From NCBI GenBank assembly GCA_017620255.1, contig JAFZQU010000019.1, positions 62,001-126,000 on the forward strand: a stretch of DNA of 64,000 nucleotides, given 5' to 3'. Made by a program: the position numbers and the translations under genes. Within the stretch, counting starts at the first letter, position 1. Each line of letters opens with the position of its first letter. The notes beneath the pieces are model-generated. The model did not search any database. It was not told where the DNA came from and saw only the letters and a list, made by a program, of their open reading frames with translations. Source of the DNA: Lachnospiraceae bacterium (GTDB taxonomy: Bacteria; Bacillota; Clostridia; Lachnospirales; Lachnospiraceae). Of this stretch, positions 14,104 to 41,463 are shown one piece after another.

Positions 14104-14340
14104 CTACGTGTACCATTTGTATTTTTTACAATTTACACGTAGTTTTTTGCTCATTTTTCTTACCGGCTACGTGTAATAAAATGATCATCAGGTTTTTACA
14201 CGTAATTTTCTTTTGTTTTTTCCTGTTTTATCCTAAATCTACGTGTAAAAATCTCAGTTTCGGTCATTTACACGTAGCTGTTCTCATTTTTCGCTCCAAA
14301 ACTACGTGTAAAAGAAATGATTTCCGGAACCTACACGTAG
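14104..14340 (-). repeat. array of eight alternating 9-bp arms (four 63-72 bp inverted-repeat units) in the queH-argS gap
   Basis: CTACGTGTA starts at 14104, 14167, 14239 and 14302; its complement TACACGTAG starts at 14134, 14197 (as TACACGTAA), 14269 and 14332. Spacings are 30, 33, 30, 42, 30, 33 and 30 bases, so same-orientation copies recur every 63, 72 and 63 bp. Each arm can pair with the arm before or after it. Read on the minus strand, the one deviating arm forms a G.U wobble; on the plus strand it is a C.A mismatch. Inner stems also occur (TTGTA/TACAA, GAAAT/ATTTC). This fills nearly all of the 337-base gap between queH and argS, both transcribed on this strand. No plausible gene is present there. 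Confidence 0.85.
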
Positions 14341-14385
14341 TCGCTCCCAAAGGGCAGTTACAAAAGCCCTCGTAATTTGCCACGA

Positions 14386-15006
14386 TCACTGCGTGATCCT
14401 GGCAAACGTACAACCGCAAAACGACTGTCTATACAGCCCGTACGTGCGGGAGAGTTCGATCGAGCGTTTCACGCCGTCGCACTTTTTGAAATCGGACGGC
14501 AGGTAGAGCACGCTGCTGTTTGCGGCACAGGCTTCACCGGTCTCGTTGAGCTTGTCGGCGCTTTTCAGCGGGCTTAAGGTAAGCGTTGTCGCAAAGTAGT
14601 CGAAGCCGTGATCTTCCGCATACTCGCATGTCTTTCCAAGCCGCAGCGCATAGCAGCGGAAGCAGCGTTCACCGCCTTCCGGCGCATCTTCCACTCCTTT
14701 TGCGATCCGAAGGAAATCATCAGGCGTATATGGTTCCGTGATCACCGAAACATCCCCGCCAAAATCCGTGTTCACGATGTTTGCAAACCGCGTAAGTTCC
14801 GCAAGCCGTTTTTCATATTCCGCCTGCTCCGTGATGTTCGGATTATAGAAATAAAACGTGACGGAAAACGCGCGGTACACACGCTCAAAACACCCGCTTG
14901 TACAAGGGGCGCAGCAGGCGTGCAAAAGCAGGGTCGGGCGTCTTTCTTCTGCCCTAAGCCCTGCAATGATCTCATCCATTTCCTTTTGGTAATTCCGTGC
15001 GGTCAT
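14386..15006 (-). CDS. queH: epoxyqueuosine reductase QueH
   Basis: Last step of queuosine tRNA modification: reduces epoxyqueuosine to queuosine (family formerly DUF208). The diagnostic cysteine pairs are all here: HACCAPC (Cys31, Cys32, Cys35), ERCFRCY in the middle and SFCGC near the C terminus, plus YNPNI. 206 residues, normal length. The ATG follows the stop codon of the GGDEF/EAL gene directly, so it is probably co-transcribed with it. Other queuosine genes are not in the window. Confidence 0.93.
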   Translation of the reverse strand: MTARNYQKEMDEIIAGLRAEERRPTLLLHACCAPCTSGCFERVYRAFSVTFYFYNPNITEQAEYEKRLAELTRFANIVNTDFGGDVSVITEPYTPDDFLRIAKGVEDAPEGGERCFRCYALRLGKTCEYAEDHGFDYFATTLTLSPLKSADKLNETGEACAANSSVLYLPSDFKKCDGVKRSIELSRTYGLYRQSFCGCTFARITQ

Positions 15007-17292
15007 TTAACTCTGTATCGTATTGTATTTCTCAATAAACTCATCCATTGAGATCGGTCTGGAGTAAAGGTATCCCTGTGCGTAATTGCAGCCGATCTCC
15101 ATGAGCATCTCCGCCTGTTCCCTTGTCTCCACGCCTTCGCAGATGACGCGTACGCCAAGGCCGTCCGCCATTTCCACGATCTTCTTCAAGATGAACTTTC
15201 CGGTCTCGCTCGCGTTCGTTTCATTTAAGAAACCGCGGTCGATCTTCAGCACGTCAAACGGCATATCACGCAGCAGGTTGAGCGATGAGAAACCGGAACC
15301 GAAGTCGTCGATGGATAAGTCCATGTTCATGCGTTTTAGTTCTTCCATGACTTCGAGCATACGCTCTCTCTCCTGGAAGAAGACGGTCTCCGTCAGTTCC
15401 AGCTCGATGAGGCTCTTGGGGATCCTGTATTTTAGCAGGATCTGCTGCACGTTCAATGTATAGTTCGGGTCATGCAGCAGGTATCTTGACTGGTTGACGG
15501 AGATCGGATAGACTTCGCGTCCCTCATCCAGCATCCTGCGCAGATATTTGCAGATCTGTTCCAGCATGTAGAAATCGATCTTCTCAATGAAGCCGTTGTT
15601 TTCAAAGATCGAGATAAAATCACCCGGCGGGATGATCTCATTCGTATTCTGTTTCCAGCGGACCAAAGCTTCAGCCGCGATGATATGGTCATTCTTCATA
15701 TCCCATTTCGGCTGCAGATACGGTACGAATTCGCCTGCGATCAGGGCCATTTCCATCTTGGACTCGATGAACTCGCGGCGCCGCGTTTCTTCCATCAGGC
15801 GGTCCTCATAGATCGCGATGAGATCCTTGCCCTGTGAAGGAACGGATTTACGCGCCAGGTTGGCTTTATCGATCATGGCCGCGATATTTTCTTTCCGGTC
15901 GCTGACCTCATAGAATCCGCATTTCATCTTGATCGGGTAGTTGATCATCTCTTCGTTTGCGGATCGGGCGATACGCTCTTCCATGTGCAGGATCCTCTCC
16001 CCGGTCCTGCCGTCATCCACGAGCAGGGCCACGAAACGGTCCGCACCGATACGCGCATAAGTCTCACGCACACTCAGTTCCTTCTCGACATGCTTCACCA
16101 TGATGCGCAGCAGGTCATCGGCTTTCATGTGTCCGTACGACTCGTTTAAGTAACGGAAATTCTGAATATCGAAACTGACAACGCGGTAGGCGATGTCGGG
16201 ATAATCCTTTAAGAGTTTTGCCGCATGCGTCTGGAAATATCTCTCGTTTGGCGCCTGCGTCAGCGAATCCTCAAACGCCAGCTTTAACATCTCGTGCTGC
16301 TCGCTCATAACGAAGCGTCCGACCAGGAAACAGAGCAGGAGCATCAGCAGGATAACGCTTAAGATCGACAGGAACGATTCGACCTTGATGCTGCGGAGGA
16401 GTGCATTCACGGCGCTGTCCCTTACCACGTTGATATAGATCCAGCCTTTCAGGTCATCGATCGGTGCGTAATAGATCTTCCAGTCATCGTCTTTGGCGTT
16501 GAACGTTAGGAACCCGGCGTCCTTCTCCGAGAAGGATTTGCGCAACTGTCCCTCCATCATGTCGCGATCTTCGTTCACGGAAAGATCTTTTAAAACATCC
16601 GTGTAAAAATCATCATTCTGCAGTACGAACATCACGTCCGAATTGCTGATCGCCATGATGGTGCCTTTTTCGTTGATGACATAGGATCTCGAGATCTGGG
16701 AATAGGTATCCATGTCCGTGCCGTCCAGCATGCCCGTTGTGGAGCTCAGTCCGAACAGATACCCCCGGATGATCCCGCGGTGAATGACAGGAAGCATGAT
16801 ACAGTAGGAAGCCATTCCGTCGCCAAAATCAAAATAGGTCTTGGCCACGACCACCGTTCCGTCTTCACTGGCGGACGGGATCAGTTCTTCAAGGCCCGAC
16901 ATTGTGGAATAGCGCTCCGAAGAATAAGACGTGCCGTCCTTCATGATCAGGACGACCCTGTCGAGATTGGACTTGTTACGCACACCGACCAGCAGCTTGT
17001 AGATCTGCTGTTCGTCCATATCGTAATTTTCGTTCTGCTGCAGCTGCTCTGCAGTGGAACGGATAACCTGGATGTTGGTATCCAGGTTTGCACTGACCAG
17101 TTCCGCATCGAGCTGTGTCTGTCCGACAATGGACGAATCCACGAATCTGCGGTATGTGTTCAGCAGGCCGTAGACATGCACAAGACAGATGATCAGACAG
17201 GTGAGCAGCAAAACAAGACATCCCGACAAAAGCAGGGTTGTCTTCCTGTTCCATTGCAGACTGTAATCTCTTCTTCTCTCCTGTTTGGGCAT
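15007..17292 (-). CDS. membrane sensor with degenerate GGDEF and EAL domain (cyclic-di-GMP phosphodiesterase)
   Basis: 761 residues. One helix at about 23-45, an extracellular Cache-type sensor region (about 50-290), a second helix near 300-325, a GGDEF domain and an EAL domain. The diguanylate cyclase signature is degraded to GADRF, so cyclase activity is unlikely. The EAL domain keeps AAEALVRW, ELTETVF, DDFGSGFSSL, DVLKIDRGFL and EGVET, so c-di-GMP hydrolysis is expected. Start ATG follows AGGGGAC. It lies 40 bases after purL and abuts queH. It ties an extracellular signal to c-di-GMP turnover; the ligand is unknown. Confidence 0.9.
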   Translation of the reverse strand: MPKQERRRDYSLQWNRKTTLLLSGCLVLLLTCLIICLVHVYGLLNTYRRFVDSSIVGQTQLDAELVSANLDTNIQVIRSTAEQLQQNENYDMDEQQIYKLLVGVRNKSNLDRVVLIMKDGTSYSSERYSTMSGLEELIPSASEDGTVVVAKTYFDFGDGMASYCIMLPVIHRGIIRGYLFGLSSTTGMLDGTDMDTYSQISRSYVINEKGTIMAISNSDVMFVLQNDDFYTDVLKDLSVNEDRDMMEGQLRKSFSEKDAGFLTFNAKDDDWKIYYAPIDDLKGWIYINVVRDSAVNALLRSIKVESFLSILSVILLMLLLCFLVGRFVMSEQHEMLKLAFEDSLTQAPNERYFQTHAAKLLKDYPDIAYRVVSFDIQNFRYLNESYGHMKADDLLRIMVKHVEKELSVRETYARIGADRFVALLVDDGRTGERILHMEERIARSANEEMINYPIKMKCGFYEVSDRKENIAAMIDKANLARKSVPSQGKDLIAIYEDRLMEETRRREFIESKMEMALIAGEFVPYLQPKWDMKNDHIIAAEALVRWKQNTNEIIPPGDFISIFENNGFIEKIDFYMLEQICKYLRRMLDEGREVYPISVNQSRYLLHDPNYTLNVQQILLKYRIPKSLIELELTETVFFQERERMLEVMEELKRMNMDLSIDDFGSGFSSLNLLRDMPFDVLKIDRGFLNETNASETGKFILKKIVEMADGLGVRVICEGVETREQAEMLMEIGCNYAQGYLYSRPISMDEFIEKYNTIQS

Positions 17293-17332
17293 ATCTGTCC
17301 CCTTTTATCCTCTATCTATATCTATCGGTAGA

Positions 17333-20300
17333 TCATCTGAAATAATCCACACCGGCTTCAAAGAGCCGCATATCCTGCTGCCCGTAAATGTTCAGCGCCA
17401 CACCGTCGCCGATACGCTCCGCATGACCCATCTTACCGAAGACGCGGCCGTCCGGTGAAGTGATGCCCTCGATCGCAAGGTAGGAACCGTTCACGTTCCA
17501 TTCCTCATCCATGGAGCAGTTACCGTCGGGATCCACGTATCTGGTCGCGATCTGTCCGTTTGCGGCAAGCTTCTTCAGCCACTCGTCGTTTGCAACGAAC
17601 CTTCCCTCTCCGTGGGATGCCGGGATCACATAGGTTGCACCGCACTCTGCCTTGGAAAGCCAGGGCGAGAGGTTCGATACCACCTTGGTGTAGACCATCT
17701 TGGAAACGTGACGGTTGATCGTGTTGAACGTAAGGGTCGGCGAATCCGCATCCTGTCCCGTGATCCTGCCGTGCGGCACGAGTCCGAGTTTGATCAGCGC
17801 CTGGAAACCGTTACAGATACCAAGCACCAGACCGTCCCTTGCAAGCAGGCCTTCCACCGCTTCTTTAATGCCTCGTTACGGTAAGCCGTCGCAAAGAATT
17901 TGGCCGAGCCGTCCGGTTCGTCACCGGCTGAAAAGCCGCCGGGGAACATCACGATCTGCGCCTTGTTCATATCTTTTGCATAGGCAGCGACCGAATCGCG
18001 GATATCCTGCGCGCTCCGGTTCGTGAACACTCTGCAGATCACATCGGCGCCCGCTTTTTCAAACGCCTTCATACTGTCGTATTCGCAGTTCGTGCCCGGG
18101 AATACCGGGATGAAGACGGTCGGTTTTGCAACTTTATTCTTGCAGACATACACCTTCTCTACGCGGTAAGGCGTGCTGTCAAGCACCTGTTTGTTATCGT
18201 ATGATCTTGTCGGAAAGACTTTTTCAAGCGGCGCGGTCCATGCATCCACCGCTTCTTTCTGCGAAATGACGGTATTCCCTACGGAAAAATCACCCGATCC
18301 GTCCACTTCGCCGATCACTTCATACGGGATCGAGAGCTGGCTCAATCTGTCTTTTTCCACTTCCGCAACGATCGAACCGAAAGCCGGCATGAACAGGTCT
18401 TTCACATCTGCATCATCATTGATCTTCACGCCGAGTCCGTTACCGAACGCCATCTTGCAAAGCGCCGGTATAGCGCCTGCACCGTCAAGCGCATAAGCAG
18501 CCTTGAAGAGACCTTTCTTTGCATCCTGATGGAACTTCTTAAACTCTTCTGCACAAAGATCATAATCCGGCAGATCGTGATCGTCTCTCTTCGCACGCAG
18601 CAGTACGATCGCATCTCCTGCCTTTTTCAGTTCCGGTGTGATCACATCGCCTTCTTTTGCCACATCCACCGCAAAACTTACCAGCGTCGGCGGTACATCG
18701 ATCTCATTGAAAGACCCGGACATGGAGTCCTTGCCGCCGATGGACGGAAGATGGAAACGCATCTGCGCTTCAAACGCACCGAGCAGGGCCGAGAACGGCT
18801 GGCTCCAGCGCGCCGGATCCTCGCTCATCCGGCGGAAATATTCCTGGAACGTGAAGCGGATCTTTTCGTGGTCACCGCCGGATGCCACAATCCTCGCCAT
18901 ACTTTCAAGCACCGCATAAACGGCGCCGTGGTACGGGCTCCAGGACGATAAATAGGGATCAAAACCGTAACTCATCATGGTCACGGTATCGCATTTTCCT
19001 TCTAAAACGGGCAACTTCGCGATCATGGTCTGTGTCTCGCTAAGCTGCAGTTTTCCGCCGTAAGGCATCAGCGTGGAAGCGGCTCCGATCGAAGAGTCAA
19101 ACATTTCGACAAGCCCCTTCTGCGAGCAGGCGTTGAGATCGGAAAGAGCAGACAGCCATGCGGCTTTGACATCGCCTTTTGCAAGCGCGTCTTCCACAGC
19201 CTTCACTTTGCAGGAAGCAAAGAAACGCTTCTTCTCATCCGGCATCTCGACTTTGACGTTGCATTCCTGGTGTGCGCCGTTGGTATCGAGGAACGCGCGG
19301 GAAAGGTTCACGATCGTCTTGCCTCTCCAGTTCATGACAAGACGCGGCTCTTTCGTCACGGTCGCAACCTGCACGGCCTCGAGATTTTCCTCTGCCGCAT
19401 ATTGCAGGAAAGTCTGCACGTCTTTTTCATCCAGAACGACCGCCATACGCTCCTGCGATTCGGAGATCGCAAGTTCCGTTCCGTCAAGGCCCGCATATTT
19501 CTTCGGCACTTTATCAAGGTCAATGATCAGGCCGTCCGCAAGTTCACCGATCGCCACGGACACGCCGCCTGCGCCAAAATCATTACATTTCCGGATCAGG
19601 CCGGAAACCTCCGGTCTTCTGAACAGCCTCTGCAGTTTCCGCTCTGTCGGCGCGTTACCTTTCTGTACTTCCGCACCGCAGGTTTCGATCGACTGCTCGG
19701 TATGTACCTTGGAAGATCCCGTGGCACCACCGCACCCGTCTCTCCCTGTTCTGCCGCCAAGCAGCAGGATCACGTTGCCCGGATCCGAAGTCTCGCGGAT
19801 CACGTTCTTACGCGGCGCCGCGCCCATGACTGCGCCGATCTCCATACGCTTTGCAACGTAATCGGGATGGTAGATCTCTTTGACATACCCGGTCGCAAGA
19901 CCGATCTGGTTTCCGTAGGAAGAATAACCGGATGCCGCGGAGCGGACCAGTTTCTTCTGGGGAAGTTTTCCTTTCAGCGTATCTGAAAGCGGGCGCGTCG
20001 GATCGGCTGCACCGGTCACGCGCATCGCCTGATAAACATAGGATCTGCCGGATAAGGGATCGCGGATCGCGCCGCCAAGACAGGTGGCCGCGCCACCGAA
20101 AGGTTCGATCTCCGTCGGATGGTTGTGCGTCTCGTTCTTGAAACTGATCAGCCATTCTTCACTTGCCGGCGCTTCCTCACTTGCAACGATTCCATCGGAA
20201 TCGTCGCGCAACGTGCCGGCCATCGCGGAACGCGATTCTCTTGCCGGCGCTTCCTCTTTACTGTAATTGATCTCAACAGGCACCACGATCGAGCAGGCAT

Positions 20301-21198
20301 TGATCTCGTCGCTCTCTTCCTGGTCCTGTAAATATCCGTCTTTTTTCAGTTTCCGCATCGCCATCAGAGCAAGGTCCATGAGACATACGAACTTGTCCTG
20401 CCGTCCTGCGAACACTTCTTTATGTGTATCTAAATATTTCTCATAACTGCCGCGGATCACATCCGTGTAAAATCCGTCTGCAAAATCAACCTGCTTCAGT
20501 TCCGTCGAGAACGTCGTGTGTCTGCAGTGATCCGACCAGTAGGTATCGAGCACGCGGATCTCCGTCATGGTCGGCTCGCGCTTCTCTTCCGTGGCAAAAT
20601 AGTTCCGGATATGCAGGAAATCCTTGTAGGTCATGGCAAGGGAGAGCGAATCATATAAAGCCTGAAACGCTGCATCATCCATCGTCAGGAAGTCTTTCAT
20701 GACTGCCACATCCGCAGGCTCCGTAAAGTCAAGGATCAGCGTCTCCGGTTTTGTGAGCGATGTTTCCCTCGAATCGACCGGATTGATACAGTAGCTCTTG
20801 ATTTTGCTTAGATCCTCATCTGAGATCTCGCCGCTTAAACAATAGGTCACGGCCGTTTTGATGACCGGATCCTCGTTCTCGTTCAAAAACCGCACGCACT
20901 GCATCGCGGAATCGGCACGCTGGTCAAACTGGCCCGGCAGATATTCCACCGAAAAGACCCTGTCCGTCGCTTCCCTGTCAAAATCCTCTTCATAGAGCAC
21001 ATCGATAGGCGGCTCGGAAAAGACGCAGGTACACGCTTTTGCAAACACATCGTCCGATATGTTTTCCACGTCGTAACGGATCAGTTCGCGCACCTTTTTG
21101 ATCCCCGTGATCGAAAGGTAACTCCTGATCTCCTCCTGTAACTGACGCCCCCTTAAGGCGTATGCGTCTTTCTTTTCCACATAGACTCGTCTGACCAC
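17333..21198 (-). CDS. purL: phosphoribosylformylglycinamidine synthase, interrupted by a single-base frameshift
   Basis: Fourth step of purine synthesis (FGAR to FGAM), long single-chain clostridial form. Start is GTG at 21198 behind CAGAGG. The first frame (21198 to 17794) covers the linker, both synthase halves (SDHCRHTTF, FKNETHNHPTEIEPFGG, CNDFGAGGVSVA) and the start of the glutaminase domain (PVFPGTNCEYD). The second frame (from about 17866 to 17333) holds the glutaminase nucleophile Cys in GICNGFQAL and SHGEGRF. Restoring one A to the AAA opposite plus-strand TTT 17864-17866 joins them as EALKEAVEGLL, exactly what the family needs. So one base is lost, in the DNA or in the read. A 26-residue insertion sits before the ETHNHP motif. 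It follows radA by 6 bases. Confidence 0.9.
20162..20256 (-). repeat. in-frame palindromic insertion in purL flanked by 17-bp direct repeats
   Basis: The sequence GAGGAAGCGCCGGCAAG (minus strand) occurs at 20240-20256 and again at 20162-20178, exactly 78 bp apart. Between them lie two hairpins: ATCGCG-TTC-CGCGAT, and an 11-bp stem GACGATTCC-GAT-GGAATCGTT extended by GC pairs with one G.U. The 78 bp encode 26 extra residues (EEAPARES... to ...GIVAS) directly before the WLISFKNETHNHP core. Confidence 0.8.
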
Positions 21199-21204
21199 TG
21201 CTTT

Positions 21205-22996: not shown

Positions 22997-23007
22997 GTGC
23001 TACCTCC

Positions 23008-25482: not shown

Positions 25483-25491
25483 CTGTATCTC

Positions 25492-28400
25492 CTAACCCTT
25501 CCTGTTGATGTCTATGAACTCGAATTCAAAGTCATCATCCAGGTCAATGTTCTGTGTATTATACGGATTCTGTCCGTAGCCGGGATAGCCGCCGTAAGGC
25601 TGGCCGTACTGGTCATAGCCCTGCATGCCCTGGCCGTAAGGATCATAGCCCTGCTGATATCCGCCATACGGATCATAGCCCTGCTGGTATCCGCCGTACG
25701 GATCGTAGCCCTGGCCGCCCTGGCCGTAAGGATCGTAGCCCTGCTGGTATCCGCCGTACTGTTGACCGTACGGGTCATACCCCTGTGCGCTCTGTCCGTA
25801 AGGATCGTAGCCCTGCGAATATCCGCTCTGCTGGCTTGTCCCGTAACTGCCCTGCGTGCCGGTACTGTAACTGCCAAGCGGGCTGCCGTAAGTACCCTGG
25901 CTGGTCTGTCCGCTCTGGCTGCCTGCACTGTAGCTGCCCTGGCTGCTCTGGCCATCGCCGTAAGAATCTGCCGCTTTATCCTGTGCATACTGCTGCGTGG
26001 TGCTCTGCTGCCAGTAGTTGCTCTCCTGCTGCGGCACGGTTTCCTTATGGATCTGGGAAGCCGGCTTCACAGCCTTTCCTTTATCCGGTTTCGGGATATC
26101 CGTCGGCAGATCCACCTTCACCTTCGGTGTCTCTACGACCGGAACGCCCTTGGAACCTGCCGGCGCTGCGGTTGTCTGGGCCGTACCTGTTGCTGCTGTT
26201 GCACCTGCCTGGCCCGCTGCGCTCACTGCACCTGCAGCTGCTGCACCCGCGGTTGCTCCGGCGGCTGCAACTCCCGCGCCTGCTCCGGCGGCTGCAACTC
26301 CCGCGCCTGCACCCGGCTGGCCTGCTGCCGTACCTGCTGCACCTGCGCCTGCCTGCTGCTGCATCAGCTTGGAGTAAGGAGATTCTCCGCCCTTCGGGCG
26401 TCTCTCATCCGTTGTATCTTTGATCGTACCTTCGAGCGAAGACCAGTCGATCTGTTCAGGCTCGTCGAAGTCCATCGCTTTCTTACGTTTCTTTTCTTTC
26501 TTGCGTTCCTCGCGGCTCTTGCGTGAGAACAGACCGCCTTCTTCCTCTTCTTCGTAATCGTCCTTGAATTCTTCTTTTGCCGGTCTTACGAAATCACTGA
26601 CAGACGGTGCATTGATGTTCGCACCCTTCGCCGGGCCTGCCTGGCCGGCTGCACCGGCTGCCGCACCTGCCGCAACTCCCGCTGCGCCTGCTGCCACGCC
26701 TGCTGCACCGGCCGTTACCGCCGTCATACCGGCTGCATTTGCACCCTGCGGTGCCATCTGACTGCCCTGGGATGCATTTCCGCCCAAAGCCGTACCTGCA
26801 TTTGCACCCTGCGGTGCCGCCTGGACGTTCTGGGATGCAACCGCGCTGGCTGCCACGCCCGGTTTTGCACCCTGCGCAGCTGTCTGACCACTCTGGGATG
26901 CACTTGCACCTGCCGCCTGTGCACCCTGCGGAGCCGTCTGAGCACTCTGGGATGCATTTCCGCCTGCTGCCGTACCTGCATTTGCACCCTGCGGTGCCGT
27001 CTGACCACTCTGAGATGCATTTCCGCCCACTGACGCTCCGGTCTGTGCACCCTGCGGAGCCGTCTGGCCGCTCTGGGATGCATTTCCGCCTGCCGCCGCT
27101 CCGGCACCAACAACAGAGCCCGCACCGGAAGCTCCAACAGCACCGGCAGCTGCACCTGCAGCACCGACCCCAACAACCCCGGCATTTGCACCGCCCGCAG
27201 GCGCTGCGTTCAGTTTCGCTGCCGCATCCGCAGGTGTTGTCACGGACTTCACGGGTGTGCGTGTCTCGCCCTTTTCGCCTGCATGCGGATCGTTTACAAG
27301 TTTATCGAAATCGACGGGCTCAAACGTTTCGCCCATTTCCATTCTGGCCAGTTCGCTCGCACGGATCCGGCTCGTCTCTTCCACGGAAGGTTCCCTGCGG
27401 CTTGTCTGCCTGGAGGTTTCAGTCTCCTCATCCTCATCGATGTAATCGTAACTCTGGTAATCCCTGAGTTTGAAGAAGAAGATCAGAAGGAAGATGAACA
27501 TCACGATCATGACAAGGCCCATCACGCCGATGATGATCAGGTTGCGGAATGCGATGGCCTTGTAATCCTTGTCTTCGCCATCCCCGCCGGTCAGTACGCT
27601 TAAGAAACCGCCCTCTTCTTCCTCGCCGGTCTTTACGCTGTCATTTGCGATCGGAAGATATCTCTGGTAGGTACCGCCGACCTGGTCGTAGAGGTACCAG
27701 CCCTTGTTGCCTTCGGAACTGATCGCATAGAGCAGGAAAAAGTCAGTTGCCGGAACATCCGAGATCACGGTGGAATCAATGGCATCCACTGCGTAAGCTT
27801 CGAGTGTCAGGCCGTCCCACTGCAGGGCGGCTTTGGTAAAGCCGTTCGGAGCCGCTACCGACTCGGGTGCTGTTAAGATAATGATATAACGGTTTTCGAT
27901 GCCCTGGATCATCTTGAAATCGGAAAGGGATTCCGTTGCGGGATCGAAAATGTTGAAGTTTCCGTTTTCACCGGTGTTATCCGTTACATAGAGCAGCGTG
28001 ATGTCGCCCATGTCAAACGAAGCCGCTTCCACGGTCTGACCGGAATAAGTCGTCGTTGTCTTATGGAAAAGCGGAGGCATGAATTCATCGTCAAATACGG
28101 TCGAGATGATCTTGGATCCGTCAGAAGAAACGATATTTCCCGGTTCCACACCCGTCGAACTCTCTGCTGCCGCCGCAATTGCTGCCGCTGTATCTTCACC
28201 GTCCACGCTGACGTAGATGGAAGAAGTCGCAGGCTCTGCGCCGTTTCCGTCAAAGATCGCCGAAGCGCTGACTTCAGCCGGTCCGCCGGACAGAATGGAG
28301 AACGTGATCGACGCACTCGTTTCGGAAAGCTGTAACAGTCCGCCTTCGCCGCCGCCGTACTCCTTATCGCATTCCAAAAATCCCAGACGGTTCGGATCAT

Positions 28401-28617
28401 AACTGATACCGATCTGCGGTGCTTCCGCAGCGTCTGCCGGATTCTCTGCTTCATACGTGACTGTGAGCGTATCGCCCACAACAGCTGTTTCCTTGTCTGC
28501 AGTCAGTGTGATGCTGCCGTCGGCAAGGACCGGAATAGAGAGCCAAAGCACGCCGAGCAGGGAAAGAATGATGCTGCCCGTGATCTTGGCATACCGGTTT
28601 TTTGTATTTGGATTCAT
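25492..28617 (-). CDS. membrane protein with cohesin-like ectodomain and long disordered Ala/Gly/Gln and Tyr-rich cytoplasmic tail
   Basis: 1041 residues, not a recognised family. Signal-like helix 1-32, then a cohesin-type beta domain (about 34-140), a second extracellular region, and a membrane helix near 357-384. After it comes an acidic/basic stretch and then ~600 residues of low complexity: seven copies of an ASQ-x-x-Q-x-APQGA unit (26720-27080), long Ala/Gly runs, a basic EERKKEKKRKK patch, and seven GYDPYG units in Gln/Gly/Tyr-rich sequence (25590-25830), ending in an acidic tail IDLDDDFEFEFIDINRKG. The ectodomain faces outward and the tail inward. It sits between a glucosaminidase gene and clpC, 10 bases from each, so it is co-expressed with both. 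Scaffold or condensate roles are inference. Confidence 0.7.
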   Translation of the reverse strand: MNPNTKNRYAKITGSIILSLLGVLWLSIPVLADGSITLTADKETAVVGDTLTVTYEAENPADAAEAPQIGISYDPNRLGFLECDKEYGGGEGGLLQLSETSASITFSILSGGPAEVSASAIFDGNGAEPATSSIYVSVDGEDTAAAIAAAAESSTGVEPGNIVSSDGSKIISTVFDDEFMPPLFHKTTTTYSGQTVEAASFDMGDITLLYVTDNTGENGNFNIFDPATESLSDFKMIQGIENRYIIILTAPESVAAPNGFTKAALQWDGLTLEAYAVDAIDSTVISDVPATDFFLLYAISSEGNKGWYLYDQVGGTYQRYLPIANDSVKTGEEEEGGFLSVLTGGDGEDKDYKAIAFRNLIIIGVMGLVMIVMFIFLLIFFFKLRDYQSYDYIDEDEETETSRQTSRREPSVEETSRIRASELARMEMGETFEPVDFDKLVNDPHAGEKGETRTPVKSVTTPADAAAKLNAAPAGGANAGVVGVGAAGAAAGAVGASGAGSVVGAGAAAGGNASQSGQTAPQGAQTGASVGGNASQSGQTAPQGANAGTAAGGNASQSAQTAPQGAQAAGASASQSGQTAAQGAKPGVAASAVASQNVQAAPQGANAGTALGGNASQGSQMAPQGANAAGMTAVTAGAAGVAAGAAGVAAGAAAGAAGQAGPAKGANINAPSVSDFVRPAKEEFKDDYEEEEEGGLFSRKSREERKKEKKRKKAMDFDEPEQIDWSSLEGTIKDTTDERRPKGGESPYSKLMQQQAGAGAAGTAAGQPGAGAGVAAAGAGAGVAAAGATAGAAAAGAVSAAGQAGATAATGTAQTTAAPAGSKGVPVVETPKVKVDLPTDIPKPDKGKAVKPASQIHKETVPQQESNYWQQSTTQQYAQDKAADSYGDGQSSQGSYSAGSQSGQTSQGTYGSPLGSYSTGTQGSYGTSQQSGYSQGYDPYGQSAQGYDPYGQQYGGYQQGYDPYGQGGQGYDPYGGYQQGYDPYGGYQQGYDPYGQGMQGYDQYGQPYGGYPGYGQNPYNTQNIDLDDDFEFEFIDINRKG

Positions 28618-28627
28618 AAATCCCTCC

Positions 28628-30826: not shown

Positions 30827-30926
30827 GGGATATCGTCCCCCTTTAGACGATCGTCCCTGCCATAGTGGCATAAACATCATATACCGATTCCCCCTTCAGT
30901 ATATAAAGACCCCTTTTTACCCCACT

Positions 30927-30955: not shown

Positions 30956-30998
30956 CCACATATTGTTAGTCAAAATCACACAATCACAAGATATTGCG

Positions 30999-31457: not shown

Positions 31458-31483
31458 TTCCGCCTCCCAAGCACTCCGGGGTC

Positions 31484-32758: not shown

Positions 32759-32792
32759 ACGTGTCATCCTCCAGATTACATATTCTATATGC

Positions 32793-32856
32793 GATTTCGC
32801 AGAACCCCTTCGTCCGCTCGCGCATTAGCTCGCGTCCAAAGTGTTCTGTCGAAATC
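32793..32856. repeat. imperfect palindromic intergenic element between purN and purD
   Basis: Outer arms GATTTCGCAGAAC (32793-32805) and GTTCTGTCGAAATC (32843-32856) pair over 13 positions with one bulged base. Inside lie two GCTCGCG copies around ATTA and GTCC motifs. It fills most of the 101-base gap inside the pur operon. No T-run follows on either strand, so it is not a simple terminator. Confidence 0.65.
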
Positions 32857-32859
32857 CCC

Positions 32860-34487: not shown

Positions 34488-34558
34488 CCGTTTCTCCCAT
34501 CCTTATTTTTCTGACGCACCCCTGAACCGGTACATACGCCGGCAAGAGCACGCGGATC

Positions 34559-35074
34559 TCATGATTTTGCCTGCAGATAAGCCTCGTATCCGAGTTCCTG
34601 AAGCTTTGCATCCTTGTTTGCAACGTCCGTCTTCATCTTCTCCTGATAAGCCTGCAGTTTTGCAAGCAAGCCCTCATCGGAGATCGCAAGCATTTTTACG
34701 GCAAGGAGCGCCGCGTTCACGGCTCCGTCGATCGCAACGGTCGCAACGGGAATGCCGCTTGGCATCTGCACGATCGAATAGAGCGAATCCTTGCCGCCGA
34801 GGCTCTTCGTGTGCATCGGGATCCCGATGACCGGCAGCGGAAAGATCGCCGCGCACATGCCCGGCAGATGCGCCGCCATCCCGGCTCCTGCGATGATCAC
34901 TTTAAAACCTTTGTCTACGGCTGTTCTTGCATAGTCAAAAAATACATCCGGCTCTCTGTGTGCCGATATGATCGTCATCTCATAGTCCACGCCGAACTCC
35001 TCGAGGATCCCGGCTGCTTTTTTCATGACGGGCAGATCCGAATCGGATCCCATCACGATCCCAACTTTAGACAT
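34559..35074 (-). CDS. purE: N5-carboxyaminoimidazole ribonucleotide mutase
   Basis: Class I PurE, converting N5-CAIR to CAIR. 171 residues: VGIVMGSDSDLPVM, ISAHREPD and GAGMAAHLPGM with the phosphate-binding serine and active-site His are present. No purK is adjacent. First gene of the pur operon; GGGAGG precedes the ATG. A weak promoter (TTGCAA, 18 bases, TATTAA) may lie across the end of the upstream peptidase gene. I see no purine riboswitch in the 61-base leader. Confidence 0.95.
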   Translation of the reverse strand: MSKVGIVMGSDSDLPVMKKAAGILEEFGVDYEMTIISAHREPDVFFDYARTAVDKGFKVIIAGAGMAAHLPGMCAAIFPLPVIGIPMHTKSLGGKDSLYSIVQMPSGIPVATVAIDGAVNAALLAVKMLAISDEGLLAKLQAYQEKMKTDVANKDAKLQELGYEAYLQAKS

Positions 35075-35135
35075 AAGCGCCTCCCACGGTCAAAATTGCA
35101 GTGGAACCAAACATCCCTGCGGTTAATATTTTACC

Positions 35136-37205
35136 TTATCTTCCCTTTGCAAGCAACGGCTGATTGAGTGCATCAAGCCCCGGCAGAACAAACAATCCGT
35201 CGCGGATGATGGCCGTTTCATTGCCGTTTTCATCCACTGCGTAGATCCCCGCCAGTTCATCGTAAGGGATCGTGATATCGGTATGGCAGTGGAAGTATGC
35301 TTCCTTCGGATTGTCTTTGCGTTTGATCGTGATCTCGTTGTCACGCGCGACGATCTGTTTGCCGTCCGGATTGAACGTCTCCAGATCCTCGTCATAGCTG
35401 TAGCAGGTATCACCGACGGCAAAGTGCGGGCCGGTCTTCTCTGCGATCAGGATGTCGAGCCGGTCAAAAATGCCGAAATCCTTGGCCATCCGGTAAGCCG
35501 TCGTGTTCGTCCCGATGGCAAACTCGCCAAGCGGCAGCATGTCATGATGGAACATCACATTATCCTTGATGTATTTGCGGTTCTCCTCTTCCGTTTCAAA
35601 GTTGCCGCAGGTATAATCCGCGATGCAACCGTCCTTGAACGTGATGGAAAGATCCGTATATTTGAGCCCCGCCAGATACACTTCCGTTACATGCAATACG
35701 CCGTTCGTGCCGGTCAGTTTCGGACTCGTGAACACTTCGCCGACGGGGATGTTCACATCCGCCACACAGTTTTCAAAGATCGTTTCCTTCGCGGGATCTT
35801 TCAGTTCATAGAGTGCGACCGTGATGTCCGTGTGATTTTTCCCGCTGCCCACAACATGCACGTACCTGGCTTTGTCGAGCGTGTCGATGATGATCTGCTG
35901 CATGTGCTCGTAGAGCTTGTAATCGAGCGTATTGACCACTACGGTCTGTTCGAAGATCTTCTCAAAATCCTTGCCGATCGCGGGAACCGGGAACGAGATG
36001 ATCGTGAAGCTCCGCTCGCTGCCGATGATGTATTCGTTGATCAGGCGCCCGCTCTCATCCGCGTATTCCACGGACAGTTTCTGCTGCTTTGCATCCAGCC
36101 GCAGGGCTTCCTTTTTAAACACGGGATCAAACGGCTCCTCACCGAACGTCTCGATGACGGCCGGGCCCGCATGATGGTTCGCGAGTGATCTTCGTTCCTC
36201 GAAAGCCGCCTTCAGCACGCTGACTTTGCGGTTCACGAAGTCCTTGTCAAGGAAGAGCGCCGCATCTTCCTTATGGTCAAAATCATACTGCCTGTTGGGC
36301 GACGTGCTCCCAACGCCTGCCCGGTATCCGGCAACGCGGATGACCGACAGGGTCGGATTCCTGCGGACCGTGACTTTCAGGCCCATCTTTTCAAAGAGCG
36401 GGACGGACTGTAAAACCATGCGCTCAAGACCCAGCGGATACCGTACTTCCGCGGTCTCCTTTTTGGAAAGATCCTTGCCCGCGTTGACAAAGCCGATCCG
36501 GTAGCCTTCCGTATAGACGCTCGCAAGTCTTGCAACCTCTTCTTCGGGCATCTTTGCAAACAGTTTCGCGAGCCCCAGCTCGTTTTCCGAAACATAATCG
36601 CCGTAGTAGTAGAGATAGCGGAGATCGCCAAGGTCGTTATCCTTTATGATCTGTAAGGGAAAATCATACGCCGGGTCGATCTGCTGCGATAAACGGTTTG
36701 GGATCAGAATGTCGCAGTTGTCGCTCTCGAACCAGTAGATCGTCTTCTTCAGTTCTTCCGCCTTCGGTACGCCCGCATCACTCAGTGCGAACTGGTCGTA
36801 GATCTCGATGAACAGTTCCAGGAACAGCACGATGACGGAAAGATCCTTCTCAAACACATACGGGATCAGCCCGCGGATCTCGGTATAGAGGAAGCAGAGA
36901 ATCTGTCCGTAATCAGCCGCATAACCTGCCTTTTCGAAAAACGAAACCGCGTAAGTGGGATTTGCAAAACTCTGTCCGTAATTCCCGGGCAGGATGTCTT
37001 CGTACAGGGTGTGATTTTGCCTCTGTAATTCCGCAAGATCCATCCTGTAAAGCGAGCCGTCAGCGACTGTTTCGTAAGTCTCATTCAGCAGCCCGATAAA
37101 CGATGCAACCTTTGAAAAATAAGTTGCAAACGGTGCCTCCGTTTTCTGTTCTGTCAGGATCTCGCTGATCCTGTCCGTGGAAAGCCTGTAGCGTTCCATA
37201 ACCAT
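35136..37205 (-). CDS. M29-type aminopeptidase with long N-terminal extension
   Basis: 689 residues, start ATG at 37205 behind AAGGAGG. The C-terminal ~380 residues carry the metal ligands of the M29 metallo-aminopeptidases (AmpS/PepS): Glu in IPVGEVFTSP, Glu in LGEFAIGTNT, His in KTGPHFAVGDT, and His/Asp in HTDITIPYDE. PepS enzymes are about 410 residues; here another ~290 helical residues precede the catalytic part, with no signal peptide. It is cytoplasmic and probably releases N-terminal amino acids from peptides. It follows the small membrane protein by 15 bases, and pyrE before it. Confidence 0.8.
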   Translation of the reverse strand: MVMERYRLSTDRISEILTEQKTEAPFATYFSKVASFIGLLNETYETVADGSLYRMDLAELQRQNHTLYEDILPGNYGQSFANPTYAVSFFEKAGYAADYGQILCFLYTEIRGLIPYVFEKDLSVIVLFLELFIEIYDQFALSDAGVPKAEELKKTIYWFESDNCDILIPNRLSQQIDPAYDFPLQIIKDNDLGDLRYLYYYGDYVSENELGLAKLFAKMPEEEVARLASVYTEGYRIGFVNAGKDLSKKETAEVRYPLGLERMVLQSVPLFEKMGLKVTVRRNPTLSVIRVAGYRAGVGSTSPNRQYDFDHKEDAALFLDKDFVNRKVSVLKAAFEERRSLANHHAGPAVIETFGEEPFDPVFKKEALRLDAKQQKLSVEYADESGRLINEYIIGSERSFTIISFPVPAIGKDFEKIFEQTVVVNTLDYKLYEHMQQIIIDTLDKARYVHVVGSGKNHTDITVALYELKDPAKETIFENCVADVNIPVGEVFTSPKLTGTNGVLHVTEVYLAGLKYTDLSITFKDGCIADYTCGNFETEEENRKYIKDNVMFHHDMLPLGEFAIGTNTTAYRMAKDFGIFDRLDILIAEKTGPHFAVGDTCYSYDEDLETFNPDGKQIVARDNEITIKRKDNPKEAYFHCHTDITIPYDELAGIYAVDENGNETAIIRDGLFVLPGLDALNQPLLAKGR

Positions 37206-37220
37206 TTCTTATCCTCCTTA

Positions 37221-37559
37221 TCAAAACACCATTCCGCTAAACACCAGCAGTCCCCAGAGCAGGAACAGCACGATGTTTACGATCAGTGCGATCCTCGGTA
37301 CCCAGATGAAAATGTCGCGTTCCTTCAGACTGATCGAAGCCGCAACGATGCCGATGATGTTCCCGATGGCTGCAAACATGCCGACGCCGCCGAGTTTCCC
37401 GGGCACCTCCCCGCGATGCGTGAACGAAAAGATGATGCATGAGATCATCGCAAGCAGGGAAACGACCGCGATCACACAGGACAAAACGCCGTTCTCGGAC
37501 TGGTGCTTCGTTGTGAACATGAAGCTCTTTTTCTTTTTGATCTTCTTGGGTTTTGGCAT
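37221..37559 (-). CDS. small membrane protein, possibly DUF6142
   Basis: 112 residues with a very basic start (MPKPKKIKKKKS) and three hydrophobic helices (about 25-48, 58-78, 87-110). The layout fits small clostridial proteins of DUF6142, an assignment from memory only. Its ATG directly follows the pyrE stop codon, so translation is coupled. Function unknown. Confidence 0.6.
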   Translation of the reverse strand: MPKPKKIKKKKSFMFTTKHQSENGVLSCVIAVVSLLAMISCIIFSFTHRGEVPGKLGGVGMFAAIGNIIGIVAASISLKERDIFIWVPRIALIVNIVLFLLWGLLVFSGMVF

Positions 37560-38237
37560 TTATTTGACTCCGTATGTCCGGTAATACGCATCGATCGCGG
37601 CTTTGATCTCATCGTCGATCACTACCTTCCCGTTTACGGGCTTGTTGTAAAGTGCCTCCACGACTTCATCCATGGTCACGATCGCGGATGTCGGAAAACC
37701 GTACGTTTCCCGCACTTCATCAAGCGCGCACATGTTGCCGGACTGCCCGACTTCCATGCGGTTCAGGGACACCATCAGGCCCGTGATCGTAACATCCGCC
37801 TGCGCCCTGACGATCGGCACGGTCTCCTCCATGGATTTACCGGAAGTCGTCACGTCCTCGATCATCATGACCCGGTCGCCGTCTTTCAGTTTGGACCCGA
37901 GCAAAATGCCCGTGTCGCCGTGGTCTTTCACTTCCTTACGGTTGCTGCAGTAGCGGATCTCCTTGCCGTAGAGCTCGCTGATCGCCATGGTCGTTGCGAC
38001 CGAGAGCGGAATGCCCTTGTAAGCCGGTCCGAACAGTACGTCAAAATCAAGCCCGAACGTATCATGGATCGCCCGCGCATAAAAGCCCGCCAGTTTCCGA
38101 AGCTGGCTGCCCGTCACATAGGCGCCCGCGTTCATAAAAAAAGGGGATTTACGACCACTCTTGAGTGTAAACTCCCCGAATTTCAACACATTTGCCTCTA
38201 CCATGAAAGCAATGAATTCCTGTTTGTATTGTTCCAT
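37560..38237 (-). CDS. pyrE: orotate phosphoribosyltransferase
   Basis: Pyrimidine synthesis: orotate plus PRPP to OMP. 225 residues from the ATG at 38237, chosen for GAGG 8 bases before it. FTLKSGRKSPFFMNAG at the N terminus, GPAYKGIPL and the PRPP-binding loop VMMIEDVTTSGKS are diagnostic. pyrF, the next enzyme in the pathway, is 11 kb away at 49086. Expressed from the promoter at 38276-38304, divergent from metN. Confidence 0.95.
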   Translation of the reverse strand: MEQYKQEFIAFMVEANVLKFGEFTLKSGRKSPFFMNAGAYVTGSQLRKLAGFYARAIHDTFGLDFDVLFGPAYKGIPLSVATTMAISELYGKEIRYCSNRKEVKDHGDTGILLGSKLKDGDRVMMIEDVTTSGKSMEETVPIVRAQADVTITGLMVSLNRMEVGQSGNMCALDEVRETYGFPTSAIVTMDEVVEALYNKPVNGKVVIDDEIKAAIDAYYRTYGVK

Positions 38238-38275
38238 TTTTTCTGCCTCTTTCCGTGTTCGATACACACATGACT

Positions 38276-38304
38276 AGTCTATCATAAATACGGGTATGCT
38301 TCAA
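38276..38304 (-). promoter_or_regulatory. promoter of pyrE
   Basis: Minus strand -35 TTGAAG (38299-38304), 17 bases, -10 TAGACT (38276-38281), about 40 bases before the pyrE ATG. Confidence 0.55.
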
Positions 38305-38350
38305 CGATGAATACACGGATCTGCGTAAACCTTTTCATGCCCGTTCTTAG

Positions 38351-38380
38351 TTGACAAAGTCTCTGTCACGGTGCGATAAT
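38351..38380 (+). promoter_or_regulatory. sigma-A promoter of metNIQ
   Basis: -35 TTGACA (38351-38356), 18 bases, -10 GATAAT (38375-38380). The start point near 38387 leaves only ~25 leader bases, too few for a SAM riboswitch. Confidence 0.7.
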
Positions 38381-38411
38381 GGAAAAAGTATTTTATTAAG
38401 GAAGTCTTGTT

Positions 38412-39428
38412 TTGATCGAACTTGTCAATGTTTCGAAAACATTTAATACAGATGACGGAGAACTCGAGGCGGTCAGGAACGTATCCCTGCATATCAACAA
38501 AGGGGATATCTACGGGATCATCGGTTTATCGGGCGCCGGCAAATCCACGCTTGTGCGCTGCATCAACTTTTTAGAGGTCCCGACCGGGGGTGAAGTGAAA
38601 TTTCAGGGCGTGCCGCTCTCTTCTCTTTCCCATAAGGAACTGCTCTTGAAGCGCAGATCGATCTCCATGATCTTTCAGGGATTCAATCTGCTCTCACAGC
38701 GCAACGTTCTGAAGAATGTCTGCTATCCGCTTGAGATCGCGGGCGTTCCGAAGGCCGAAGCCGAGAAAAAAGCCGTTTCCTTATTAAAGATCGTGGGACT
38801 CGATGACCGTCTGAAGGCTTTTCCTGCCCAGTTATCGGGCGGACAGAAGCAGCGTGTCGCGATCGCGCGTGCACTTGCCACGGACCCGGAAGTCCTGCTC
38901 TGCGACGAGGCGACCTCGGCGCTCGACCCGAATACCACCCGGGCGATCCTTGATCTTCTCAAAGAGATCAACGAGACCATGGGCGTGACGATCGTCGTGA
39001 TCACGCACGAAATGAAAGTCGTTGAAAAGATCTGCAACCGCGTTGCGGTACTCGACCACGGCGTGGTCGCTGAAGAGGGACTGGTCAGTGATATCTTCAC
39101 TGCGCCGAAGTCCGATATCGCACGGGAGCTGATCTTACCTAAATCCGCGGCAGTTGCGGAAGTGAAGAACGGAAAGATGATCCGCGTCATCTTTGACGGC
39201 CAGGAAAGCGATGAACCGTTCATTTCCAACATGTCCATCCAGTGTTCCGCCGCAGTCTGTATCATGGGCGCCAACACGGAAGACATCGGCGGCAAAGCTT
39301 ACGGACAGATCCTGCTGCGCCTGCCGGATGACCCCTCCGCGGAAGCCCGTATCATGCGGTACATGCAGGATCATGGCACTAAGTATGAAGAGGTTACCAC
39401 ACCTGCTGTAGAGGAGGTGATGTCATGA
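38412..39428 (+). CDS. metN: methionine ABC transporter ATP-binding protein MetN
   Basis: Energises D/L-methionine import. 338 residues; the start is a TTG (38412) behind AAGGAAG, giving the family opening MIELVNVSKTF. Walker A GLSGAGKST, signature LSGGQKQRVAIARAL and Walker B VLLCDEATSALD are intact. The C-terminal ~75 residues are the NIL regulatory domain that senses methionine. It overlaps metI by 4 bases. The TTG start may limit its translation. Confidence 0.95.
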   Translation: MIELVNVSKTFNTDDGELEAVRNVSLHINKGDIYGIIGLSGAGKSTLVRCINFLEVPTGGEVKFQGVPLSSLSHKELLLKRRSISMIFQGFNLLSQRNVLKNVCYPLEIAGVPKAEAEKKAVSLLKIVGLDDRLKAFPAQLSGGQKQRVAIARALATDPEVLLCDEATSALDPNTTRAILDLLKEINETMGVTIVVITHEMKVVEKICNRVAVLDHGVVAEEGLVSDIFTAPKSDIARELILPKSAAVAEVKNGKMIRVIFDGQESDEPFISNMSIQCSAAVCIMGANTEDIGGKAYGQILLRLPDDPSAEARIMRYMQDHGTKYEEVTTPAVEEVMS

Positions 39429-40114
39429 CCGGCTTTCTGCAGTCCTGTTTTGGCAACGGAATGCTTGGCACTTACGGACTTGCCGTCGTCTCCACACTGA
39501 AGGTAACGCTGATCAGCTTTGCGGTCTCCTATCTGCTCGGACTCCCCTTGGGTGTCCTGCTCTACGGAACCGCTTCGGACGGGATCTTCCCGAATAAACC
39601 GCTGAGTACGGTGCTTGACGTGATCGTCAACATCATCCGCTCGATCCCGTTCATCATTCTGCTCGTCATGATACAGCCGCTTGCTAAGATCGTGGTGGGC
39701 ACGAAGATCGGTGATAATGCTTTTATCTTCTACCTGATCGTTGCCTCGTTCCCCTATGTGGCGCGTATGATCGAATCTTCCCTTCGGGAAGTCGACCGCG
39801 GCGTGATCGAAGCCGCACAGTCCATGGGTTCGAACAATTGGCAGATCGTAACCAAAGTCATTATCCCCGAAGCGAAACCTTCCCTGATCATCGGTGCGGC
39901 GATCGCGATCACCACGATCCTCGGTTACACACCGATGGCCTACCTCATCGCAGGAAGCGGCTTGCTCGGACAGCTTGCGATCCAATACGGTCTCTACCGG
40001 TTTGATTCAAAGATCATGTACATTTCGTCACTGCTCCTGATCATCCTGGTACAGATCATGCAGGTTGTGTTCAACTATTTTGCCAAGAAGACGGATAAAC
40101 GGATCCGCAACTGA
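39425..40114 (+). CDS. metI: methionine ABC transporter permease MetI
   Basis: 229 residues, five predicted membrane helices. The ATPase-contact loop reads FPYVARMIESSLREVDRGVIEAAQSMGSN-like (EAA motif), and NIIRSIPFIILLV precedes it, both standard for MetI. Coupled to metN by the ATGA overlap; metQ follows after 82 bases. Confidence 0.95.
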   Translation: MTGFLQSCFGNGMLGTYGLAVVSTLKVTLISFAVSYLLGLPLGVLLYGTASDGIFPNKPLSTVLDVIVNIIRSIPFIILLVMIQPLAKIVVGTKIGDNAFIFYLIVASFPYVARMIESSLREVDRGVIEAAQSMGSNNWQIVTKVIIPEAKPSLIIGAAIAITTILGYTPMAYLIAGSGLLGQLAIQYGLYRFDSKIMYISSLLLIILVQIMQVVFNYFAKKTDKRIRN

Positions 40115-40196
40115 TCAATATGCCGGTTTATGCCGTAAGGCATATAACTTATAAACAAAAAACAAACCACGAATAATGGTATCAGGAGGAAAAAAG

Positions 40197-41006
40197 ATGA
40201 GAAAAAAGATTTTGGCAACCCTTGTTGTTGCTGCCACAGTTCTGGCGCTGGCAGGCTGCGGAAATTCTTCCGCTGCTGACAACACCATCACGGTCGCTGC
40301 ATCCAGCGCACCGCACGCGGAGATCCTGGAACAGTGCGTTCCGGTCCTTGCAGATCAGGGCATCACGCTTGAGATCAAGGTAATGGACGACTACATCATT
40401 CCGAACACTTCCACGGAAAGCGGAGATGTAGATGCGAACTATTTCCAGCATCAGCCGTATCTGGATGATTTTAACGCAAGCAACGGTACACACCTTGTAA
40501 CGGTTACACGCGTTCACTACGAGCCCTACGGCATCTACGCAGGAACCTGCGATTCTCTGGACGCTCTGCCTGACGGCGCTTCCATCGCAGTGCCGAACGA
40601 CACGACCAACGAAGCCCGCGCGCTTCTGCTTCTGCAGGACAACGGCATCATCAAGTTAAAAGACGGCGTCGGCCTGACAGCAACCAAGAATGATATTACG
40701 GAGAATCCGAAGAATGTCGATATCCTGGAAATGGAAGCAGCACTCCTTCCGGCTCAGCTTGACGAAGTGGCTGTTGCAGTCATCAACGGTAACTACGCGA
40801 TCGATGCAGGCTTAAAGGTTTCCGAAGCACTGGCTGCAGAGAAGGCTGATTCCGAAGCAGCACAGACCTACGCAAACATCCTGGTCGTAAAAGAAGGCAA
40901 CGAAAACCTGCCGAAGATCCAGGCCCTTTCCAAGGCTCTGACATCCGACGCGATCCGCGACTACATCAACAACACATACGATGGTGCGGTGGTACCGATC
41001 TTCTAA
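40197..41006 (+). CDS. metQ: methionine-binding lipoprotein MetQ
   Basis: Substrate-binding component (NlpA family). ATG at 40197 is chosen for AGGAGG 7 bases upstream. Signal peptide MRKKILATLVVAATVLALAG ends at a lipobox LAGC, so the mature protein is lipid-anchored outside. IPNTSTESGDVDANYFQHQPYLDDF and VAVINGNYAIDAGL match methionine-binding NlpA proteins. 269 residues. Followed by a strong terminator at 41024-41060. Confidence 0.95.
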   Translation: MRKKILATLVVAATVLALAGCGNSSAADNTITVAASSAPHAEILEQCVPVLADQGITLEIKVMDDYIIPNTSTESGDVDANYFQHQPYLDDFNASNGTHLVTVTRVHYEPYGIYAGTCDSLDALPDGASIAVPNDTTNEARALLLLQDNGIIKLKDGVGLTATKNDITENPKNVDILEMEAALLPAQLDEVAVAVINGNYAIDAGLKVSEALAAEKADSEAAQTYANILVVKEGNENLPKIQALSKALTSDAIRDYINNTYDGAVVPIF

Positions 41007-41023
41007 GTTCATGCAAAAATGCA

Positions 41024-41060
41024 CCCCCTGCGAGCCATTGCTCACAGGGGGATTTTTTTT
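41024..41060 (+). terminator. intrinsic terminator of metNIQ
   Basis: CCCCCTG (41024-41030) pairs with CAGGGGG (41045-41051), extended inward by GAGC/GCTC, followed by eight Ts. Confidence 0.9.
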
Positions 41061-41115
41061 GTAAGCTGTATTTTCATTTCTGTATATTTCCGTTTATTTC
41101 TGTGTGCTTCATTTT

Positions 41116-41463
41116 CACCCTGATGGTTCATTTTCTCTTTTCAGGGTGCATTCTCTTTTTCCGCTTTAGAGCATTTTTCACCCTGACAGGCCATTCTCTC
41201 CTCCCAGGGTGCATTCTCTTTTTCCGCTTTAGAGCATTTTTCACCCTGACAGGCCATTCTCTCCTCCCAGGGTGCATTCTCTTTTTCCGCTTTAGAGCAT
41301 TTTTCACCCCGGCAGGCCATTTTCTCCTCCCAGGGTGCATTCTCTTTTTTCGCTCCGGATTAAATTTCACCCCGGCAGGCCATTCTCGCCTCCCGGGGTG
41401 CATTCTCTTTTTTCGCTCCGGATAAAATTTCACCCCGGCAGGACATTCTCGCCTCCCGGGGTG
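41116..41463 (-). repeat. six exact 63-bp tandem units, each with an inverted-repeat hairpin and compensatory arm changes
   Basis: Left arms start at 41116, 41179, 41242, 41305, 41368 and 41431: exactly 63 bp apart. Right arms start 26 bases later in every unit. Units 1-3 have CACCCTG/CAGGGTG, units 5-6 CACCCCG/CGGGGTG, and unit 4 the intermediate CACCCCG/CAGGGTG. On the minus strand unit 4 is a G.U wobble; on the plus strand it is a C.A mismatch. The minus-strand hairpin continues through an AGG/CCT or AGGC/GCCT inner stem to a GAGAATG loop. The linker of later units contains GGAGCGAAAAAAGAGAA. The array fills the gap between the metQ terminator and the convergent DUF4097 gene. The minus strand is open as a 114-codon frame of 21-residue basic repeats starting MHPGRREWP; I do not call it a gene. 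Confidence 0.9.

Follow-up and report, generated by a model that had tools for sequence, protein, structure and literature searches.

Nuclease-like proteins paired with helically phased inverted-repeat arrays: a candidate dispersed element of Lachnospiraceae

Two tandem inverted-repeat arrays in a 64,000-nucleotide stretch of a Lachnospiraceae genome (assembly GCA_017620255.1; contig JAFZQU010000019.1, positions 62,001 to 126,000, hereafter the window) belong to a nuclease-like protein of about 267 residues, and we are confident that the protein and such arrays form a cognate pair. The two arrays represent two branches of a wider family of such arrays present in many gut bacteria. Our preferred explanation, which we consider fairly probable, is a two-part element made up of this protein and tandem inverted repeats of a half-site private to it, with the arrays as its dispersed target repeats. 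The window is C25:62001-126000 of a draft genome of 2.93 Mb in 48 contigs. Array 1, of type A, spans 14104..14340 and has four inverted-repeat units (14104-14142, 14167-14205, 14239-14277 and 14302-14340), each laid out as CTACGTGTA-N21-TACACGTAG, with start-to-start spacings of 63, 72 and 63 bp. Array 2, of type B, spans 41116..41463 and has six units of 33 bp, laid out as CACCCYG-N19-CRGGGTG and set 63 bp apart at every step. The purine-rich strand is the minus strand in both, and the two arrays were the sole output of a generic tandem inverted-repeat detector over the full 64 kb. A first-pass annotation of the window, made from its letters alone, had described both; the arrays are real, and the imperfect arms that it placed at 14197-14205 and in the unit at 41305 are as it described them, but the 63-bp period that it gave to both is not uniform in array 1.

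The pairing rests on 101 loci of the protein, 61 from protein searches and 40 fetched in addition, most of them top scorers among more than 150 listed. A tandem inverted-repeat array was found at 71 of them, upstream of the gene in 59 cases, downstream in 11 and overlapping its called start in 1, and 63 of the 71 arrays lie within 350 bp of the gene. The same detector found arrays in none of 101 dinucleotide shuffles and in none of 186 control pieces (0/99 congener pieces, 0/19 argS loci, 0/62 other-phylum pieces and 0/6 loci with the C-terminal domain only). When the type of arm was varied as a control, inverted arms were detected at 73 loci, against 12 for reversed and 12 for complemented arms; direct repeats were found at 32 loci, but tandem arrays yield direct repeats too. 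Fifteen further full-length loci gave arrays at seven, including five of nine congener loci, with yet other arms. Because related loci are not independent, the probabilities given below for arms and spacing are optimistic. In the host genome itself there are exactly two copies of the protein, one beside a type-A and one beside a type-B array. The earlier proposal that the two arrays belong to one family is supported on grounds other than its own, since each arm type has, beside an array, a cognate paralogue of one protein family. No fixed partner gene was found beside the nuclease gene, the largest neighbour clusters among the 101 loci comprising six proteins. The gene does recur near guaA (L202, L203, L218, L236, L242), near comEC-like genes (L229, L239, L240, L265, L271, L284) and near rplM (L272, L278, L281, L289, L294) in different genomes, as judged by BLAST clusters with Pfam on some members; such sites, in several genera, suggest either long residence or that the same places were used repeatedly.

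The protein has no sequence match in Pfam, NCBIfam or the Protein Data Bank, where the searches gave nothing credible. In the structural model, long helices and a small three-stranded sheet are followed by a C-terminal PD-(D/E)XK-type domain; conserved motif and model together contain an E...PD...(D/E)xK-type active site in an alpha-beta-beta-beta-alpha-beta core, and the motif residues are kept in 99 of 99 proteins. The C-terminal half is accordingly best described as a predicted PD-(D/E)XK nuclease. No Y1 transposase model appeared among Pfam matches up to E 1 for seven members, with HMMER filters dropping most matches above 0.1. Of 397 genomes sampled from the bacterial family, 125 contain the protein, often in several copies, and it is present in 16 of 37 genomes of the genus. 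A phylum-wide sample of 398 genomes contained 11 with a match; all the full-length ones fall within the same family, and six genomes elsewhere in the phylum carry the C-terminal domain only. Eleven of 13 genomes reached through type-A hairpin loci hold the protein, these being 13 of 59 loci, picked as array-like or from array-bearing metagenome-assembled genomes (MAGs). Two MAGs have type-A arrays that look degenerate, with decayed left arms (L080, L135), and the protein was not found in them, as expected after loss of the enzyme. The named array-bearing MAGs are mostly Lachnospiraceae. A rumen Treponema MAG contains seven matches to the protein (L115:6298-7094; L234, L244, L254); its three array-linked paralogues form one supported clade, which speaks for transfer followed by radiation and against misbinning, the less favoured account on the present tree. 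A phage or plasmid element was considered and rejected. Viral contigs yielded no relative, and ten viral loci with a type-A hairpin had one hairpin each. Plasmids contained no full-length match, the plasmid relatives being annotated as AAA family ATPase, and of three phage records one has a nearly full-length match; in this record, which is faecal, unverified and 4.2 kb long, the detector gave no array.

Before the arms were counted, the 8 of 71 arrays more than 350 bp from the gene were left out; the tree used the remaining 63, and the correlations used 62, one more having been dropped for a score below 2.4. The arms vary widely (TACGTGT, TACGCGC, TTACGGT, TACCACGG, CCGACTG, GCATCGG, GACACGC and others). 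TAC occurs in 42 of 63 (null mean 9.8, maximum 21 in 2000 draws), and in 30 of those 42 it begins at the first or second base. Paralogues with arrays in one genome have, by eye, different arms in 13 of 14 genomes, some of these arrays being weak or lying farther than 350 bp from the gene; the exception, G357, has similar arms. Both arm similarity (r 0.26) and period (r 0.19) correlate with protein identity (0 of 2000 in either case), and they do so among pairs below 60% protein identity as well (r 0.23 and 0.17), where the N-terminal half gives r 0.21 versus 0.17 for the C-terminal half. On a maximum-likelihood tree of 63 proteins, arm classes cluster (25 changes versus a shuffled mean of 33.1, 0 of 200). 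By class, clustering is seen for TACG (10 changes versus 19.9) and GAC (4 versus 7.7; 0 of 500 each), and is not seen for CAT, TACx and the class of other arms. The sequence comparisons thus point, with modest correlation and with exceptions, to co-evolution of the repeat with its enzyme. In one rumen Lachnospiraceae MAG (L103:4480-5000), a single array mixes the arms TTACGGGTG, CTACGTGTG and TTACGGGCC, each with its matching partner, and has one chimeric unit; at another locus (L113:4360-4835), an array with arms GTACGTAAA adjoins one with arms CTACGTGT, both with a period of about 73 bp.

The geometry of the arrays follows the DNA helix. Unit spacings fall at 41-42, 51-54, 61-65, 71-75, 83-86 and 94-96 bp, and the best common divisor of the array median spacings is 10.45-10.5 bp (R 0.80; null maximum 0.43 of 5000). 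Three mixed arrays have median spacings of 56.5-58, and wider limits add medians of 33, 79, 107 and 126. Inside a unit, the arms are mostly 29-32 bp apart. Since neither hairpin RNA nor single-stranded hairpins would need helical spacing between units, the arms are likely to be recognised as duplex DNA.

Within the host genome, DNA and covariance-model searches place the type-A arms (CTACGTGT/ACACGTAG) at 17 or more sites, a lower bound given that 150 of 700 candidates were scored, with one of the sites, C1:9114, being a single unit; the type-B arms (CACCCYG/CRGGGTG) occur at five. Across the genome the arms are nearly invariant, and loops and linkers are divergent: mean loop identity is 0.53 within arrays versus 0.41 between them (58 units, 13 arrays). 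Despite this divergence, all 58 units have loops of length 23 or 24. Thirteen of the 17 type-A and three of the five type-B places are on contigs C25, C27 and C11, which make up 13.3% of the genome (binomial 6e-9; post-hoc simulation 1 of 20000), and type-A arrays stand at both ends of C25. Array 1 has the arginyl-tRNA synthetase gene argS (12276..14048, minus strand) downstream and the epoxyqueuosine reductase gene queH (14386..15006, minus strand) upstream; array 2 is flanked by a convergent NlpA lipoprotein gene (40176..41006, plus strand) and a DUF4097 protein gene (41496..42446, minus strand), all four assigned by Pfam. Array neighbours in general are unrelated (ArgRS, QueH, Opp transporter parts, GNAT, alpha/beta hydrolase, a pyridoxal phosphate enzyme, MgtE, NlpA), one array, at L062, sitting between oppC-like and oppD-like genes, and for that reason a common regulon was rejected. 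A first reading, in which 10 of 11 type-A arrays lay upstream of a co-directional gene, was not used because divergent junctions satisfy it automatically. Searches of 36 congeners gave no convincing copy of either array (best E 0.0012 and 0.019). Nineteen argS loci were fetched from congeners, of which 10 showed argS and queH side by side and the other 9 showed argS only; array 1 is absent from the junction in all 10, where the gap is 4-189 bp versus 337 bp in the host genome. This absence, with the cognate paralogues, lends support to the first-pass suggestion of mobile repeats. Another 63-bp tandem repeat in the window, at 26733-27090, lies within a long minus-strand open reading frame (25492-28617); it is probably a coding repeat, and its sharing of the period seems coincidental.

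As we picture the element, the N-terminal half of a protein dimer would read a pair of inverted half-sites in duplex DNA that are separated by some three helical turns, and adjacent dimers would align on one face of the DNA, which would put units n x 10.5 bp apart. With an array in front of its gene, the protein would control its own expression. Cutting or nicking in the arrays, followed by repair or unequal recombination, would expand an array and create copies at other intergenic sites, a route that may be likened to the one proposed for RAYT proteins and the repetitive extragenic palindromes (REPs) and bacterial interspersed mosaic elements (BIMEs). The dispersal of the arrays, the absence of array 1 in congeners and the presence of one gene per arm type are the reasons for proposing REP/RAYT-like spreading; that the nuclease itself does the spreading is a tentative proposal, to which we give slightly less than an even chance. 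What weighs against it is that no movement of an array was observed.

An alternative with a smaller but real claim, which we think unlikely, is a pair useful to the host, possibly in defence: the nuclease would be held on the arrays, as operators, stores or self-marks, and be released or activated against incoming DNA, with the arrays spread by ordinary recombination and kept by selection. The nuclease domain is indeed common to the candidate defence proteins PDC-S68 and HEAT_CxxC_PDDEXK, and the predominance of upstream arrays (59/71), the sites that recur in several genera (near guaA, comEC-like genes and rplM) and the retention of the motif residues (99/99) would all fit. However, the dispersed arrays adjoin unrelated genes, and no neighbour family recurs strongly in the 101 loci, those that were tested being housekeeping. 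Less credible, and in our view improbable, is a chromosome-domain system in which a structural protein, here with a nuclease fold, would bind the arrays as phased platforms, as in matS or parS clusters. Helical phasing and the concentration of 13/17 type-A and 3/5 type-B places on 13.3% of the genome are what such a system might look like, but it has no need of invariant catalytic residues, and the lack of a convincing copy of the arms in the 36 congeners speaks against it. Moreover, the parS matches are on another contig (C34), so the origin is probably there, and an origin-proximal role was rejected on that basis.

The first-pass annotation read both arrays as functional RNA of the minus strand, that is, as tandem hairpin RNAs, and this now appears very improbable. 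Its test, set beforehand, was the count of wobble pairs per strand. Type B leans to the minus strand (15 minus-wobble versus 6 plus-wobble cells in 24 related units), but the asymmetry is gone in type A (19 on the minus, purine-rich strand versus 14 on the plus, in 55 distinct units) and in the arrays of other genomes, beside the protein in the fetched loci (42 gene-strand versus 33 other-strand cells, or 18 arrays versus 16, with 41 cells pairing on neither). The purine-rich strand is also the sense strand in 6 of 7 co-directional type-A contexts, in our reading. As to covariation, positions 2-7 of the type-A arm are invariant, and the variable pair at position 9 (AT 28, AC 13, GT 11, GC 3) shows no compensation; its two sides vary independently, which indicates degenerate half-sites and not a paired stem. 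Because the detector by its definition makes differences between arm types symmetric, these were excluded from this comparison. Independent RNA hairpins would need neither a constant loop length nor periods in helical turns. The Rfam search gave no gathering match in the window, although an undescribed family would escape it. On pair counts, spacing and Rfam together, an RNA hairpin family was rejected. The linker said to unite the two arrays fares little better: the match of 16 of 17 positions is real but weak, being reached by 1 of 300 shuffles of the linkers of the window arrays and by 2 of 60 shuffles when 56 type-A linkers were compared with 21 of type B. Of ten genome places within two mismatches of it, three are in the window arrays and seven at no known array place. 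With similarity this near chance, GAGCGAAAAANGAGAA was rejected as a family signature. Finally, passive satellites, slippage repeats with no partner whose nearness to the protein gene is coincidental, can claim that neighbouring units are sometimes near-identical, but are scarcely believable against arrays at 71/101 protein loci versus 0/186 control pieces, the same arms at 17 dispersed places with diverged loops, and arms that track the protein phylogeny.

Several known systems invite comparison with the proposed two-part element. CRISPR, TIGR and other guide arrays also place a regular array beside a nuclease gene, with unrelated spacers; here the spacers are not unrelated (loop identity 0.53 within arrays), and arrays occur at many gene-free places. 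Type III toxin-antitoxin or CRISPR-like arrays are restricted to the locus of the partner gene, whereas here a single gene corresponds to 17 dispersed type-A places. Arrays of phased operators or centromere-like sites, for example parS, matS and parC, share the repeated half-sites on one helix face, but here the partner is nuclease-like with an invariant motif, and arm sequence is mostly private to each paralogue. PDC-S68 and HEAT_CxxC_PDDEXK, candidate defence systems of PADLOC, have a homologous C-terminal nuclease domain; in PDC-S68, however, the match is to the last ~130 residues of models of ~1200 residues, and the six C-terminal-domain-only loci elsewhere in the phylum have no arrays (0/6).

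The closest known systems are the REPtrons, REP/BIME repeats (including REPINs) with their RAYT or TnpA-REP enzymes. In PMC8266576 and PMC3733652, REPs are described as short extragenic palindromes of alternating orientation, often in tandem and dispersed intergenically, with a mostly single-copy, repeat-specific enzyme gene beside some repeats and with co-evolution of repeat and enzyme. The element described here likewise has one enzyme gene adjoining a copy of the repeat, further repeats of that type elsewhere (17 places for type A, 5 for type B) and a repeat sequence that appears to co-evolve with the enzyme. It differs in that the enzyme is of PD-(D/E)XK type and not an HUH/Y1 tyrosine transposase; in having half-sites of 7-9 bp, ~31 bp apart and with helically quantised periods, in place of 20-50 nt stem-loops preceded by GTAG; and in having GTA(G/A) inside the inverted arm, where the REP tag of GTAG type is outside the stem. 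The host group differs too, being Lachnospiraceae by the named MAGs; the words Firmicutes and Clostrid are absent from PMC3733652. Because even the REPtrons fail in two tested features, enzyme superfamily and tag structure, we rate the element as categorically new, though working like a known kind. No description of the arrays or the protein was found in searches of the open-access PubMed Central literature, which is weak evidence of novelty.

What may be at hand, and we give it an even chance, is a hitherto undescribed class of selfish or domesticated elements in which paralogous PD-(D/E)XK nucleases with private half-sites build and disperse helically phased palindrome arrays in the chromosomes of Lachnospiraceae and, at least once, in those of a rumen Treponema. 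It would be the duplex-DNA equivalent of REP/RAYT, equipped with a DNA recognition domain that is able to evolve. On the practical side, the element may interrupt the assembly of gut genomes, since several arrays stand at contig ends. From the 63 natural protein-arm pairs one could work out how DNA is read by the N-terminal half, and the rule of n x 10.5 bp imposes a sharp constraint that can be tested. If the explanation is true, these bacteria, in which we found no RAYT-like enzyme described, would hold a second version of the REP/RAYT design, built on an unrelated enzyme.

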